Shown here piece by piece: positions 1,678 to 15,632 of a DNA stretch of 64,000 nt. The notes beneath the pieces were generated by a model. The model searched no databases, had not been told where the DNA came from, and was given only the letters and a program-made list of their open reading frames with translations. Origin of the DNA: Conexivisphaerales archaeon (GTDB lineage: Archaea; Thermoproteota; Nitrososphaeria; Conexivisphaerales; DTJL01). The stretch's first letter is position 1, and the number at the start of each line of letters is the position of its first letter. The translations under genes were made by a program, and so were the position numbers. Where the stretch lies: contig JAVYTR010000003.1 of the NCBI GenBank assembly GCA_038728585.1, forward strand, positions 124,001 through 188,000, given 5' to 3'.

Positions 1678-3768
1678 ATGAAGACAAGAAAACCCGTCAT
1701 GAATAGGCTATCTTCAGAAAAGAGTCCATATCTGCTAAAGCATGCTGACAATCCGGTAGACTGGTACCCGTGGTGCGAAGAAGCTTTTCAAAAAGCGAAG
1801 GAAGAAGATAAGCCGATCTTTCTCAGTATAGGGTATTCATCATGCCACTGGTGCAACGTAATGGAAGAAGAGTCTTTCAGAGACCCTGAAATTGCGAAAA
1901 TGCTGAACGAGACGTTTGTATGCATAAAGGTGGACAGAGAGGAGAGGCCTGACATAGATAATCTCTACATGACCTTCTGTCAGATGATGACTGGCTCCGG
2001 TGGCTGGCCGTTGACCATAGTGATGACCCCTGACAGGAAACCGTTCTTTGCAGCTACTTACATACCTAGAGATTCGAAATTTGGAATGACAGGTCTTACA
2101 GAACTTATCCCCAGGATAAGAGAACTCTGGCAGAGTAAGGACAGGAGGGGTGACCTGATTTCTCAAGGTGAAAAGCTAATACACAGCCTGAAGGTCTACA
2201 TGACACCGAAGCCAGAAGGTACTGTCCAGCCTGAAGATGCGGACGCTTGTTTTGAGCAGATGTTAGGAATGTTCGATGAAGAGCACGGAGGATTCGGCAC
2301 AGCCCCAAAATTCCCAGCTCCACACAGGCTACTCTTTCTGTTAAGATACTACAGGCTGAAAGGAGAAAAAGCTGCGCTGATAATGGTTGAAAAGACTTTG
2401 AACGCGATGAGGAAAGGAGGAATATATGACCAAATAGGCTATGGTATACACAGATATTCGACCGATGCCTATTGGCTTGTTCCTCATTTTGAAAAGATGC
2501 TTTACGACCAGGCATTATGCATGCTTGTTTATCTTGAAGCGTATGAAGCGACAAGAAAGGAAATTTATCTCAACACTGCTAGGGAGATAGCTGCGTATCT
2601 TGTCAAAGAAATGAAAAGTTCTGAAGGGGGGTTCTTCACCTCGGAGGATGCGGATAGCGAGGGAAAGGAGGGGAAGTACTATCTCTGGAGTGAGGAACAA
2701 CTGAAGGAGTTTCTGTCGAGCGATGAGTATGACCTCGTTGTTAGGGCCTACCTTGGCAAGATGAAGGCGGGTGTAGATGAAATAGGTTACGTGTTGCATG
2801 TAGCCCAAGATATCAGCAGCCTCGCCAGCTATTATAAGCTGGGAGAGAGAGAAATGGCAGAAAGATTAGAAGTTTTGAGGAAGAAGCTCCTTGAGATAAG
2901 AGAAAGAAGAGTTAGACCTGCGAAAGATGACAAGATACTGGCTGACTGGAACGGTCTTGCCATCGCTGCCTTTGCCAGAGCGTTTGCTATCACAGGAGAA
3001 ATAGGTTATTTACAGGCAGCAAGAGAAGCTGCAGACTTCATACTTGCCAAGATGAGAGACAAGAACGGAATGCTGATGCACAGATACAGGGATGGTGAAG
3101 CTGCAATACGTGGCTTTCTGGAAGATTACGCTTTCTTGTGCTGGGGGCTGGTCGAGCTCTACGAAGCATGCTTTGAAACCAGGTACCTTGAAGAAGCTAT
3201 CAATCTGAAGGAGCTTGCAATAAGGAACTTCTGGGACGAAAAGGAAGGAGGTTTTTACCAGTGCGACGTCGAGTCAGGTCTAGCCTACAGGATTAAGGAG
3301 GCTCAAGAAGGAGCTCTTCCGTCTGGGAATTCTGTCATGGCCTATGTGATGTATCTGCTCTCAAGGATCACTGGGAGGCTTGATGATATCAAATACATTG
3401 AAAGGATGAAAGAGTTGTTTGCATCTTCAGTAAAGAATTCACCAAGTATGTATCCCTTCTTCCTTATTGCAACTTGCCTTTTACCTGCGAACTTCAGAGA
3501 AGTGGTCATAGCATACAATCAGGAAACGGAAAAGGAAGCCTCGCTCTTGCTGCAGGCGGTTAGAAGGTATTACCTTCCAAACAAGGTCGTGATTCTGAGA
3601 AAAGTCGATCAGCAGCAGCAGGGGAAGGCGGATGTGGACAGGTTAGCCAGCTACGTTAGAAACTTCGGGATGAAGGATGAAAAAGCAACTGCCTATGTCT
3701 GCACCAACTTCTCGTGCCAGCTTCCAGTCAGTTCGGTGGAAGAACTTGAGAAAGCGATCACCCAGTGA
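1678..3768 (+). CDS. DUF255 / YyaL (SSP411-like) protein, thioredoxin-like domain plus six-hairpin domain
   Basis: Large soluble protein of 696 aa. Residues about 8-165 form the thioredoxin-like DUF255 domain, with the redox motif [14 protein letters not shown] (Cys56, Cys59) and a [16 protein letters not shown] block. The rest has the helical toroid composition of six-hairpin glycosidase-like domains. Length is typical for the family (about 670-700). Biochemical function is not established in prokaryotes; redox or N-acylglucosamine-epimerase-like activity has been suggested. The ATG at 1678 has GGAG at 1667-1670 (7-nt spacing); an internal ATG at 1699 is possible. It appears monocistronic. 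Confidence 0.9.
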
Positions 3769-3885
3769 TATATTACTGACATAGCTGTTCCTTCTTTTCA
3801 GTCAACTTATTCAAATCGGGTTGTGATGTGCATTTGACAGAGTTGCATTTAATCTGCAGAAGAACAAAAAACAGGAGAATGCGGA

Positions 3886-12835: not shown

Positions 12836-13006
12836 TCATATCAAGCCCGTTGATTTATCAAAGTAAAGCTCTGTATACCCGCAGGCTGAACAGATGTATG
12901 CTGTGAACAGATAGCCTTTGCCACCGTATCCGAATTTACCGTACATGGATAGCTTCTCTTCTTTGAATTTTGAGCTTCCACATTTGACACAGCTAGAAGG
13001 AGGCAT
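12836..13006 (-). CDS. Small zinc-ribbon protein, 56 aa
   Basis: Found by reading the bases between the MFS gene and the insertion element. ATG at 13006 to TGA at 12836; the product begins MPPSSCVKCGSSKFKEEKLS. Two CxxC knuckles (Cys6/Cys9 CVKC and Cys39/Cys42 CSAC) are about 30 residues apart, the layout of small nucleic-acid-binding zinc ribbons. TTTTATAAG at 13031-13039 (reverse strand) is centred 29 nt upstream of the ATG, so the mRNA should be leaderless. Exact role unknown. Confidence 0.8.
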   Translation of the reverse strand: MPPSSCVKCGSSKFKEEKLSMYGKFGYGGKGYLFTAYICSACGYTELYFDKSTGLI

Positions 13007-13055
13007 ATATGCAAAATTAAGGAAGCCGGCTTATAAAAGTAACCGTTTCTCTAAA

Positions 13056-13075
13056 CGTGTATTTTAGTGTACACG
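13056..13075 (-). repeat. Inverted repeat near the 3' end of the IS607-type element
   Basis: CGTGTA (13056-13061) and TACACG (13070-13075) form a perfect 6-bp stem with an 8-nt loop, 75-95 nt downstream of the tnpB stop. Further short stems lie between here and the stop (CCTGC at 13129-13133 with GCAGG at 13143-13147). The position fits the structured right end or guide-RNA scaffold of a TnpB element, but the element boundary is not proven. Confidence 0.35.
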
Positions 13076-13150
13076 CCCAGATTCGGCGCGCTGGCAGCAT
13101 CGGTCCAGCCTGCTCTCTCTGCATCAGGCCTGCTGGGAGTGTGCAGGTAT

Positions 13151-14341
13151 TCACTCCTCATCTGCTGCCAGGAGGCACACGCACTCACGGCAAACGGTTG
13201 GCCGCAAAGGCGCATACCACGACAGAGTATAGCCAACGAGGCCAGCCTGTCTCTCTCTGTCATAGTCCACGCCACATTTAGAGCACCTGCTCACCGCCCA
13301 CGCTGGGTGCTTCAGCCTTCCACCACCGCAGACGGGACACTTCGATGAGGTCCCACGTGGGCTCACGTAGATGGTGCGATTTCTAGATTTGTACTCCACC
13401 ATCGACTGGTAGAGCCGGTAAGGCCACCTGTTAAGATACGTCCTCAGCTTCCTGCTCTTCTTCGCTCCCCTGCTAGTCCTCCTTATCCCCTTCAGGTCCT
13501 CGAAGATGAAGGATGCGCCGGGGTTCTCCCTCACCATCTTCGTAGAGAGTTTGTGGAGTGCATCTCTGACCCTGTCCCTCTGCCTCCCTCTAGTCTCCTT
13601 CAGCTTCCTCATTCTCTTCTGAGGATTCTTCAAGTGGAGCTGTAACGCCCTCCTTCTCCTTGAGAAGTCATTCTGTATCCGGACGATATGACTGAGAGGC
13701 TCTGTCTTCACCGCTTCGAGGGCAGAAGGCCTCCCATCCCTGGGAGCAGACATGGTAGAATCAACGCTCTTGAAGTTCAGGTCCTGTGCCACGAATTTCT
13801 TCCCGAGAGGCTTGTTCTTCATTTCTTCCCCGACCACGAACGTCAGGCAGACCTTCCTGTCTGTGATGAGCAGCTCTGCTACTCTCCCCTTCGAGTACTC
13901 CCCATAATGCTTGTTGGTGGCGTTGACAGGGAGCCAGACATACCTGTTTGGCTGGAGTGTTATCCTGACCTGCCCGTCGATGATCCTGAACAGCTCTGAA
14001 TCTATCCTCATCGCCAGCTTCTTCACTTGGGGTATCCTCAACTCACCTTGGTTGTTCTTCCTGTAGGACCTCAGCATAGCTACTGCAGCCCTGCAGACAG
14101 GGTTGACGTGGTGTCTGGCGTATCCGTACCTGGAGTAGAACCAGTCACGAACCTCCCTCCTCAGCTGGATGGGAGACGGGATCCTGCGTTTCTCGTTTGC
14201 GATAGCATCTCTGTATGCCACCTGTAGAGCATACCTGACCGCTTCCTGCATGTCTGTGAGGTACCGTAGTATTTCGCATGGCTGCTCCTGTCGCCAGACG
14301 ATAGTCCTCTTATCTCCAGTAGACTTCCATGGGTGGCTCAC
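13151..14341 (-). CDS. tnpB: TnpB (OrfB) RNA-guided nuclease of an IS607-type element
   Basis: 396 aa, uninterrupted. RuvC-like catalytic residues are present: Asp187 (AQDLNFKSVD), Glu281 (FIFEDLKGIRR) and Asp361 (DYDRERQAG, aligning with the DRDxNAA block). The zinc finger has Cys335/Cys338 (CPVC) and Cys353/Cys356 (CSKC). The N-terminal half has the usual REC/wedge composition. TnpB proteins are RNA-guided DNA endonucleases whose guide RNA overlaps the 3' end of the gene. Start is GTG at 14341, overlapping the tnpA stop by 4 nt (GTGA). The upstream tnpA is broken, so this copy cannot move by itself. Confidence 0.92.
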   Translation of the reverse strand: MSHPWKSTGDKRTIVWRQEQPCEILRYLTDMQEAVRYALQVAYRDAIANEKRRIPSPIQLRREVRDWFYSRYGYARHHVNPVCRAAVAMLRSYRKNNQGELRIPQVKKLAMRIDSELFRIIDGQVRITLQPNRYVWLPVNATNKHYGEYSKGRVAELLITDRKVCLTFVVGEEMKNKPLGKKFVAQDLNFKSVDSTMSAPRDGRPSALEAVKTEPLSHIVRIQNDFSRRRRALQLHLKNPQKRMRKLKETRGRQRDRVRDALHKLSTKMVRENPGASFIFEDLKGIRRTSRGAKKSRKLRTYLNRWPYRLYQSMVEYKSRNRTIYVSPRGTSSKCPVCGGGRLKHPAWAVSRCSKCGVDYDRERQAGLVGYTLSWYAPLRPTVCRECVCLLAADEE

Positions 14342-14939
14342 GGAGATAGCATCAACTCCTTGATGCTCTGCAGTAGTCTCTTTATCTTGTGGCTCCTCAT
14401 CTCATAGAGCTTGGCAGAGAAGGACGTGATGATTGCGATCATATCACGCACCTGCTCCTCCTGTAGAGACATGACCTCTCTGCTATTAAAGACCACTATC
14501 TCTTTACCATACTTGGCTCACAACCATTACGGGAGGTCGAACCCGAACATAGCTAGCCTATCCTCATAGGTAACTTAAATCCTGGAGACCCTCCTGTCGA
14601 GCATGTCTTTGAGCAGCCTGAGCAAGCCTTTCCTCCTGAAGTTCAACCCAGACTTGACATTTGAGTAGACCTACTCTCCTGCAGTCTTGCTCTTCAACAC
14701 CTCGATCTGTTTATCCAAATCTGACTTCTGGTTATGCGAAGAAACTCTTGCATAGATGGTCTCCTTCCGTCTCTCTGCGATGTTCATGACACGCCTGATC
14801 TCCGATTCAGGCACCCTCCTCCTTCCAGTCGAAAGCCTGATGCATCTGGTCTTTCCTTCTCTCTGTCCCAGACCTGTATTGTAATAGTCGTCACTCCAAG
14901 TATCTTTCCTGCATTTCTTGGGCTGTAAACTGGTTCCAA
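14338..14939 (-). pseudogene. tnpA: Degraded IS607-type serine recombinase (TnpA)
   Basis: Reading the reverse strand from TTG 14939 gives EPVYSPRNAGKILGVTT, a MerR-like helix-turn-helix, then VWDRE. A frameshift follows, after which the frame continues with TRCIRLSTGRRRVPESEIRR and the resolvase block TIYARVSSHNQKSDLDKQ with its catalytic Ser. After that come in-frame stops (within E*VYSN, RI*VTYEDRLA and twice near GFDLP*WL*AKYG), then clear homology resumes (EIVVFNSREVMSLQEEQVRD) to the natural stop overlapping tnpB. One frameshift plus four stops make it non-functional. Total length, about 200 codons, is normal for the family. Confidence 0.88.
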
Positions 14940-15065
14940 TAGAACATTCTGTAAGGGATATACATGTTAATATACATCATTCAATAGCAGTCAGATGCCC
15001 CTCATACAGATTTCTCAGGAAGGAAGTGTTTCAGAACTTCTGTTGCTTTGATGTGCGTTTCTGTC

Positions 15066-15632
15066 CTACCTTTTACCCAATTGACCCCCTATGTAAGACC
15101 TGACAGTACTTATGGTGTTGAATAAAGACTCCTTCGCGATTTTGTTTCCTCTTAGCGCCGCAGCAGGGTGGTATGTTGGAAAGACCTTTACGCTGATATC
15201 TTCATATCTCCACTCGAAAGGCGTCAGCTTCAAAGACTTTGAATCCTCGAAGAATTGAAGCGCTGTGAGACCCAATGTGATTATTGCATTTGGCTTTACG
15301 ATTCTTATCTGTTCGAAGAGATAATCTCTGCAAGCTGAGACCTCACCTGACCTTGGCCTCCTGTTGTTTGGAGGTCTGCACTTGACTATGTTTGTTATGA
15401 AGACGTCATCCCTACTGAGCGATGCCTTTTGCAACGCTTGGTCGAGAAGTGACCCAGCCCTTCCCACGAAAGGCCTCCCCTTTTCGTCCTCGTTTCTGCC
15501 AGGCGCCTCACCTATCATCATTATCCTTGCGTCTGCAGGACCTTCCCCTGGCACTGCATTCTTCCTGGAATTGCAAAGAGCACATCTTCTGCAGACCTTT
15601 ATTTCCTCTGCCAGGTCATTTAAGCTCTTCAT
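15066..15632 (-). CDS. udg: Type-4 uracil-DNA glycosylase
   Basis: 188 aa, removes uracil from deaminated DNA, important at high temperature. [4Fe-4S] ligands are Cys14, Cys17 (VCRRC), Cys85 (VKCRPPNNRRP) and Cys101 (ACRDYL). The active-site block GEAPGRNEDEKGRPFVGRAG and the C-terminal YHPAAALRG motif are typical of family 4. Its 5' end overlaps the 3' end of the JAMM peptidase gene by 17 nt, implying translational coupling. Confidence 0.96.
   Translation of the reverse strand: MKSLNDLAEEIKVCRRCALCNSRKNAVPGEGPADARIMMIGEAPGRNEDEKGRPFVGRAGSLLDQALQKASLSRDDVFITNIVKCRPPNNRRPRSGEVSACRDYLFEQIRIVKPNAIITLGLTALQFFEDSKSLKLTPFEWRYEDISVKVFPTYHPAAALRGNKIAKESLFNTISTVRSYIGGQLGKR

Follow-up and report, generated by a model that had tools for sequence, protein, structure and literature searches.

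Selection on tnpB beside a dead tnpA in a decaying IS607-family element of a Conexivisphaerales archaeon

Introduction

Can a tnpB gene be kept by selection once the recombinase gene that it overlaps has died? This question is raised by an IS607-family element in the genome of a Conexivisphaerales archaeon (GCA_038728585.1; 1.93 Mb in 27 contigs), which we analyzed within a window of 64,000 nucleotides (contig JAVYTR010000003.1, positions 124,001 to 188,000); all positions given below are those of the window. An earlier note had described an intact tnpB next to a ruined tnpA, and had suggested that tnpB may be under selection or was moved in trans, raising the possibility that it was domesticated as a nuclease serving defence or regulation. 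It should be noted that a dead tnpA is in itself not unusual, since in one published set of IS607 loci 80% carry both genes and 30% of the TnpAs there are pseudogenes (Cell Research 2024, PMC11061315). A search of titles and abstract openings, with subscription papers thinly covered, found no account of selection acting on tnpB after the loss of tnpA.

Results

The element, its ends and its copies

The features of the element are collected in Table 1. It is flanked by a gene of the UDG superfamily (15066-15632) and a small Zn-ribbon gene (12836-13012), the protein of which matched only in its own genome among 21 genomes searched (0 of 20 relatives). The sequence ACTTTTATAAG, which we take to be a TATA-like motif, lies within 13020-13042, just past the right end and upstream of the Zn-ribbon gene, and given this motif the element may sit in the promoter of that gene. 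A single pattern search recovered the right end AAACGG at eight of ten oriented loci; it is also present in copy L049, with a variant in L051. GAGGG, which together with AGGAG is a reported TAM of IS607 TnpBs (PMC11061315), stands at five of the six left ends that were read, and AAGGG at the remaining one.

Table 1. Features of the IS607-family element and location of its sister copies.
Feature	Position	Strand	Remarks
IS607-family element of ~1.96 kb with a GG core at both ends	13043..14999	minus	homology to C5 sister starts and stops here; flanks differ
GAGGGG, predicted TAM overlapping the GG core, left end	14998..15003	minus	GAGGG at 5/6 left ends read
tnpA pseudogene, MerR-type HTH and serine resolvase	14338..14939	minus	+2 frameshift near 14864, four stops
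TAG stop in tnpA (codon 89)	14671..14673	minus	common to C5a sister; sense codon in G003
TAA stop in tnpA (codon 121)	14575..14577	minus	common to C5a sister; sense codon in G003
TAA stop in tnpA (codon 137)	14527..14529	minus	in frame against G003 TnpA
TGA stop in tnpA (codon 140)	14518..14520	minus	in frame against G003 TnpA
tnpB, open over 396 codons, with a frameshift at RuvC-III	13151..14341	minus	aligned with sister copies
GAGA 4-nt insertion	13255..13258	minus	shifts tnpB frame; exact placement in GA run ambiguous
Glu363 codon, position of RuvC-III catalytic Asp in relatives	13253..13255	minus	homologous to ISDra2 D361
Family-frame C-terminal tnpB tail and stop, now out of frame	13051..13254	minus	separate ORF 13051-13275
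Predicted omegaRNA (reRNA) scaffold, almost wholly inside family tnpB frame	13043..13242	minus	covariation, lowered tail dS; ends approximate
Predicted 16-nt guide, host DNA past right end	13027..13042	minus	right-end position
Copy C5a	contig C5:38681-40631		94% identical to window over nearly whole element
Copy C5b (L013)	contig C5:1-900		91% identical to window; cut by contig edge

Besides the window copy the genome carries two further copies, C5a and C5b, and related elements were identified in genomes of the same family (G003) and the same class (G145) and in several named archaeal MAGs, with TnpB relatives at E <= 1e-5 in 41 of the 150 genomes searched. The nine other copies analyzed represent eight independent insertions, L050 being by its flank the same insertion as G145. 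Six copies have a readable left end and a whole tnpB (window, C5a, G003, G145, L046 and L049); tnpA is intact in one of these, dead in two and not detected in three, while tnpB is open in four and frameshifted in two (window and L049). The other four oriented loci (C5b, L048, L050 and L051) are without the 5' part.

Some further relatives were observed. L049 (VGLU01000004.1) is a related element with no detectable tnpA, the tnpB of which is frameshifted near residue 175. The genome of the window also contains three distant relatives of TnpB, L006 (G000:C6:43976-44887), L007 (C21) and L010 (C15), of which one has an open 438-aa frame and two have stops. In C5b a block of about 75 bp just after RuvC-I is strongly unlike the window and C5a copies, amid a near-identical tnpB, and its sequence suggests recombination with another subfamily.

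Death of tnpA and later movement

Comparison with the intact 196-aa TnpA of G003 confirmed that tnpA of the window copy has one frameshift and four in-frame stops, to which an in-frame +9 can be added. The remnant retains 65-70% amino acid identity to the G003 protein and reaches 153.5 bits against the transpos_IS607 model NF033518 (cut-off 110); G003 TnpA itself scores 200 bits and has Resolvase and MerR domains, i.e., the serine recombinase with N-terminal MerR-HTH that is typical of IS607. In the tnpA of C5a the stops at codons 89 and 121 recur, the AG run that holds the window frameshift carries +4, and a further stop, at codon 138, is peculiar to this copy. With tnpA dead in both, neither copy is mobile through a TnpA of its own, and the window/C5a element is a non-autonomous descendant of the IS607 family.

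The two copies, which have these two stops in common, lie in unrelated flanks, and they are therefore separate insertions from an ancestor already without a working tnpA. Published IS607 insertion occurs at GG without target duplication (PMC6188088), and this mode is seen at the C5a site, where a 357-aa frame of an AAA_14/DUF4143 ATPase (L012 851-1513 plus 3581-3871) reappears once the two flanks are fused at a single GG. The C5a copy is thus a real transposition product; for the window copy its own empty site was not found. The suggestion that the tnpB-bearing element moved without its own tnpA is in this way borne out: the element moved after tnpA had died, with the recombinase presumably supplied in trans from elsewhere.

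The earlier note had regarded an intact, near-identical tnpA elsewhere in the genome as a finding that would count against its suggestion. Such a gene was sought in the assembly and not found: the six family matches have stops or are split fragments, the longer matches at the protein level are interrupted by stops or divided over frames, and the rest are short pieces. The intact trans-acting tnpA may have been lost, or it may lie in an assembly gap (contig C5 begins inside a copy).

A frameshift through the third catalytic residue of TnpB

The unbroken 396-codon frame of tnpB, its 4-nt overlap with the tnpA stop and both zinc-finger CxxC pairs (first cysteines C335 and C353) all hold as first described, yet tnpB is not intact, as four extra bases shift the frame through the third catalytic residue. 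Of the three RuvC acids that had been claimed, the RuvC-I Asp187 and the RuvC-II Glu281 are present; the RuvC-III Asp is gone and Glu363 stands instead. In an alignment with ISDra2 TnpB, D361 falls on the second Asp of a D-R-D motif of the family. The inserted GAGA is missing from all nine other copies, both in those that were aligned (C5a, C5b, G003 and G145) and in those that were read (L046, L048, L049, L050 and L051), and all three catalytic acids are retained in the alignment of the C5a, G003, G145 and L046 proteins; the window copy has only two of the three D-E-D residues of an RNA-guided TnpB. After the shift 33 out-of-frame residues replace the last 65 of C5a and the frame ends at 13151, not 13051, whereas the sister TnpBs continue to 420-425 aa; the ORF left behind at 13051-13275 is a 93% match to sister residues 358-425.

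Profile scores bear on the same region. The window tnpB passes the cut-offs of TIGR01766 and PF07282, the latter (34.3 bits, cut-off 26.3) marking the TNB zinc finger. Against the guided_TnpB profile it scores 77.4 bits and C5a 86.7, both under the cut-off of 100, and this drop agrees in direction with the C-terminal loss. Structure models from six-row alignments gave a mean pLDDT of 42.0 for the window TnpB and 41.2 for the unshifted relative L045, values too low for the models to be informative. The catalytic centre of ISDra2 TnpB is formed by D191, E278 and D361, with RuvC comprising residues 185-326 and 360-375 (Nature 2023, PMC10097598). The ISDra2 protein without residues 376-408 still cleaves efficiently (PMC10097598), and in a deep mutational scan stops were depleted before residue 376 and truncations tolerated only after it (PMC11844463). 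The break in the window copy precedes this limit and loss of nuclease activity is therefore predicted; on its primary sequence the window TnpB is predicted to be a dead nuclease.

A frame broken in one copy only could also be a sequencing or assembly error, the window then encoding a full-length, working TnpB that serves element retention. The 4-bp insertion is known from one assembly, it is a single change in the length of a GA repeat within a multi-copy sequence, and the 1.1 kb of tnpB upstream of it is constrained on the window branch (see below), all of which would fit an error. The GA run is however short, and the tnpA frameshift in both the window and C5a is also a length change of an AG run, so that slippage is natural in this sequence. 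We consider an error improbable.

A guide-RNA scaffold within the coding tail of tnpB

The stem-rich 3' region had been proposed as the guide-RNA scaffold, and this is borne out by covariation across nine copies. In the family, tnpB ends just 8 nt short of the right end (stop at 13051-13053, end at 13043), which places the scaffold within the coding tail. The region folds with z = -2.12 (8 of 200 shuffles fold as well). A common structure of the nine copies has 93.6% of its cells paired, with every slid control lower, and two-sided changes occur at 14 of its pairs, where shuffles gave 6.2 on average and none of 500 reached 14, although these counts are favoured by the derivation of the structure from the same nine sequences. 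Synonymous divergence is lower in the tail than in the body of tnpB in six of six pairs compared (e.g., 0.245 versus 0.663), which is what one would expect of DNA under the constraint of an RNA structure. Covariation and tail dS together point to a structured omegaRNA that overlaps tnpB at the right end, as in TnpB systems; Rfam at gathering thresholds gave no match over the window. The window scaffold differs from that of C5a at 7 of 187 sites and, judged by this comparison, is largely preserved. A stretch on another contig (L014, G000:C14:4776-4887) is 79% identical to the scaffold over 116 nt with no adjoining tnpB; we considered it as a free-standing guide RNA and judged it more probably an old right-end remnant.

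The predicted guide has two matches in its own genome at up to two mismatches. The only one without mismatch is the guide itself, and no target beside GAGGG was found apart from it; a site on contig C1 with two mismatches was rejected, as its preceding bases are not G-rich. The window copy could also be a guide-only element, its own TnpB being dead while the C5 sister supplies an intact TnpB that takes up the preserved omegaRNA of the window copy and protects the window insertion in trans. We hold this to be unlikely.

Selection on tnpB and on tnpA

Since the window and C5a copies descend from an ancestor with tnpA already dead, the two genes can be compared over the same interval. In tnpA 41 of 587 sites differ, spread evenly over the codon positions (11/13/17, p = 0.30), whereas in tnpB 50 of 1260 differ and fall mostly in third positions (8/12/30, p = 9e-5), the two genes also differing in overall rate (p = 0.008). 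Third positions of tnpB (30/420) changed at the same rate as tnpA (Fisher p = 1.0), and positions 1 and 2 of tnpB at a lower one (p = 0.0016). The dN/dS of tnpB for this pair is 0.187 (NG86), and neutrality of tnpB is rejected overall (p = 8e-7). With changes polarized by outgroup, and the neutral spectrum for the branch probabilities drawn from tnpA, there were 15 synonymous and 10 nonsynonymous changes on the window branch (p = 5e-4) and 14 and 11 on the C5a branch (p = 2e-3); two changes in tnpB could be placed on neither branch.

These rate estimates are based mainly on a single pair, and gene conversion between copies is possible (compare the divergent block in C5b). Comparisons involving C5b gave higher tnpB ratios, 0.29 and 0.38, and as read from the alignment they arise largely from this block, which weakens the picture of selection somewhat. 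In a second pair, G145 and L046 from other archaea, no tnpA was detectable and the dN/dS of tnpB is 0.231; a tnpB-only ancestry of this pair rests on the leader that the two have in common at the left end, which matches at 86 of 127 aligned positions and consists in part of flank.

If tnpB were preserved merely by the recency of the copy, both genes would have been neutral since the death of tnpA, a reading that can draw on the few changes between the copies and on the window tnpB being now broken. It is hardly credible, as over one and the same interval the tnpA changes are even across codon positions and 60% of those in tnpB fall in the third, and as neutrality is rejected on both branches. 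The codon-position data show instead a tnpB under purifying selection in this lineage while tnpA drifted neutrally, and the rate comparison that had been proposed for the two genes came out in favour of selection.

Discussion

The window most probably holds a decaying IS607 copy in which tnpA was dead before the element spread, tnpB and its omegaRNA were under selection, and TnpB was then broken by slippage. The stops common to copies at different sites show that the recombinase gene was lost before these copies dispersed, so that a recombinase acting in trans presumably moved the element, and rates and covariation show that selection continued on tnpB and the omegaRNA in its 3' end while tnpA decayed. 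The most likely reason, by analogy with published work on TnpB, is that TnpB guided by the flank cuts sites free of the element, whereupon repair restores the element. In the window copy a slippage of 4 bp then cost TnpB its third RuvC acid together with the last part of the RuvC fold, probably abolishing activity while the scaffold remained.

Such an element resembles IS607 elements with RNA-guided TnpB (e.g., ISFba1; PMC11061315), which have the same order of a MerR/serine-recombinase tnpA followed by tnpB, the GG junction, a GAGGG-type left motif, an RNA scaffold at the right end and frequent pseudo-tnpA. It differs from them in being archaeal, in having a TnpB that scores far below the cut-off of the curated model for IS607 TnpB (27 bits for C5a, cut-off 350) and no Rfam match, and in its frameshifted nuclease. 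With ISDra2 TnpB of the IS200/IS605 group (PDB 8bf8, 8h1j) the sequence similarity of the family TnpB is weak (E about 2e-4), but the RuvC D-E-D layout is common to it and the unshifted sister, as is the zinc finger, and ISDra2 likewise has an omegaRNA overlapping the 3' end of tnpB and a disordered tail (PMC10097598). ISDra2 in contrast uses an HUH (Y1) TnpA and TTGAT (PMC11844463).

The domestication that had been proposed finds no support in the genome, which offers no further GAGGG-flanked target of the guide and in which the sisters are ordinary dispersed insertions. TldRs are nuclease-dead relatives of TnpB that act as RNA-guided transcription factors (PMC13418256), and the window copy is like them in having lost a RuvC residue while retaining the guide-RNA scaffold. 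A host that keeps tnpB for a nuclease role in defence, or as a TldR-like guided repressor for which the loss of the RuvC-III Asp is adaptive, would account for this combination and for purifying selection on tnpB. The loss is however due to a frameshift, with which the last RuvC helix goes as well, and of the copies read only the window copy shows it, unlike an active-site loss conserved across orthologues, and there is no sign of a regulated target: in its own genome, at up to two mismatches, the guide matches itself and a site without GAGGG, and no host target beside a TAM. Domestication is very improbable, and selection for retention of the element explains the constraint.

The element is thus an ordinary one, and it is the contrast in selection that makes it useful. 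A tnpB frame of normal length can conceal a frameshift at the last catalytic residue, a warning for the reading of other open frames. Should the window copy be a guide-only element, the family would survive through a shared TnpB that holds a network of dead-tnpA copies in place. Two copies with the same dead tnpA constitute a natural experiment, in which one gene serves as a neutral clock and the other does not, and they provide a direct measure of selection on TnpB without a transposase of its own, which matches what the element-retention model predicts.
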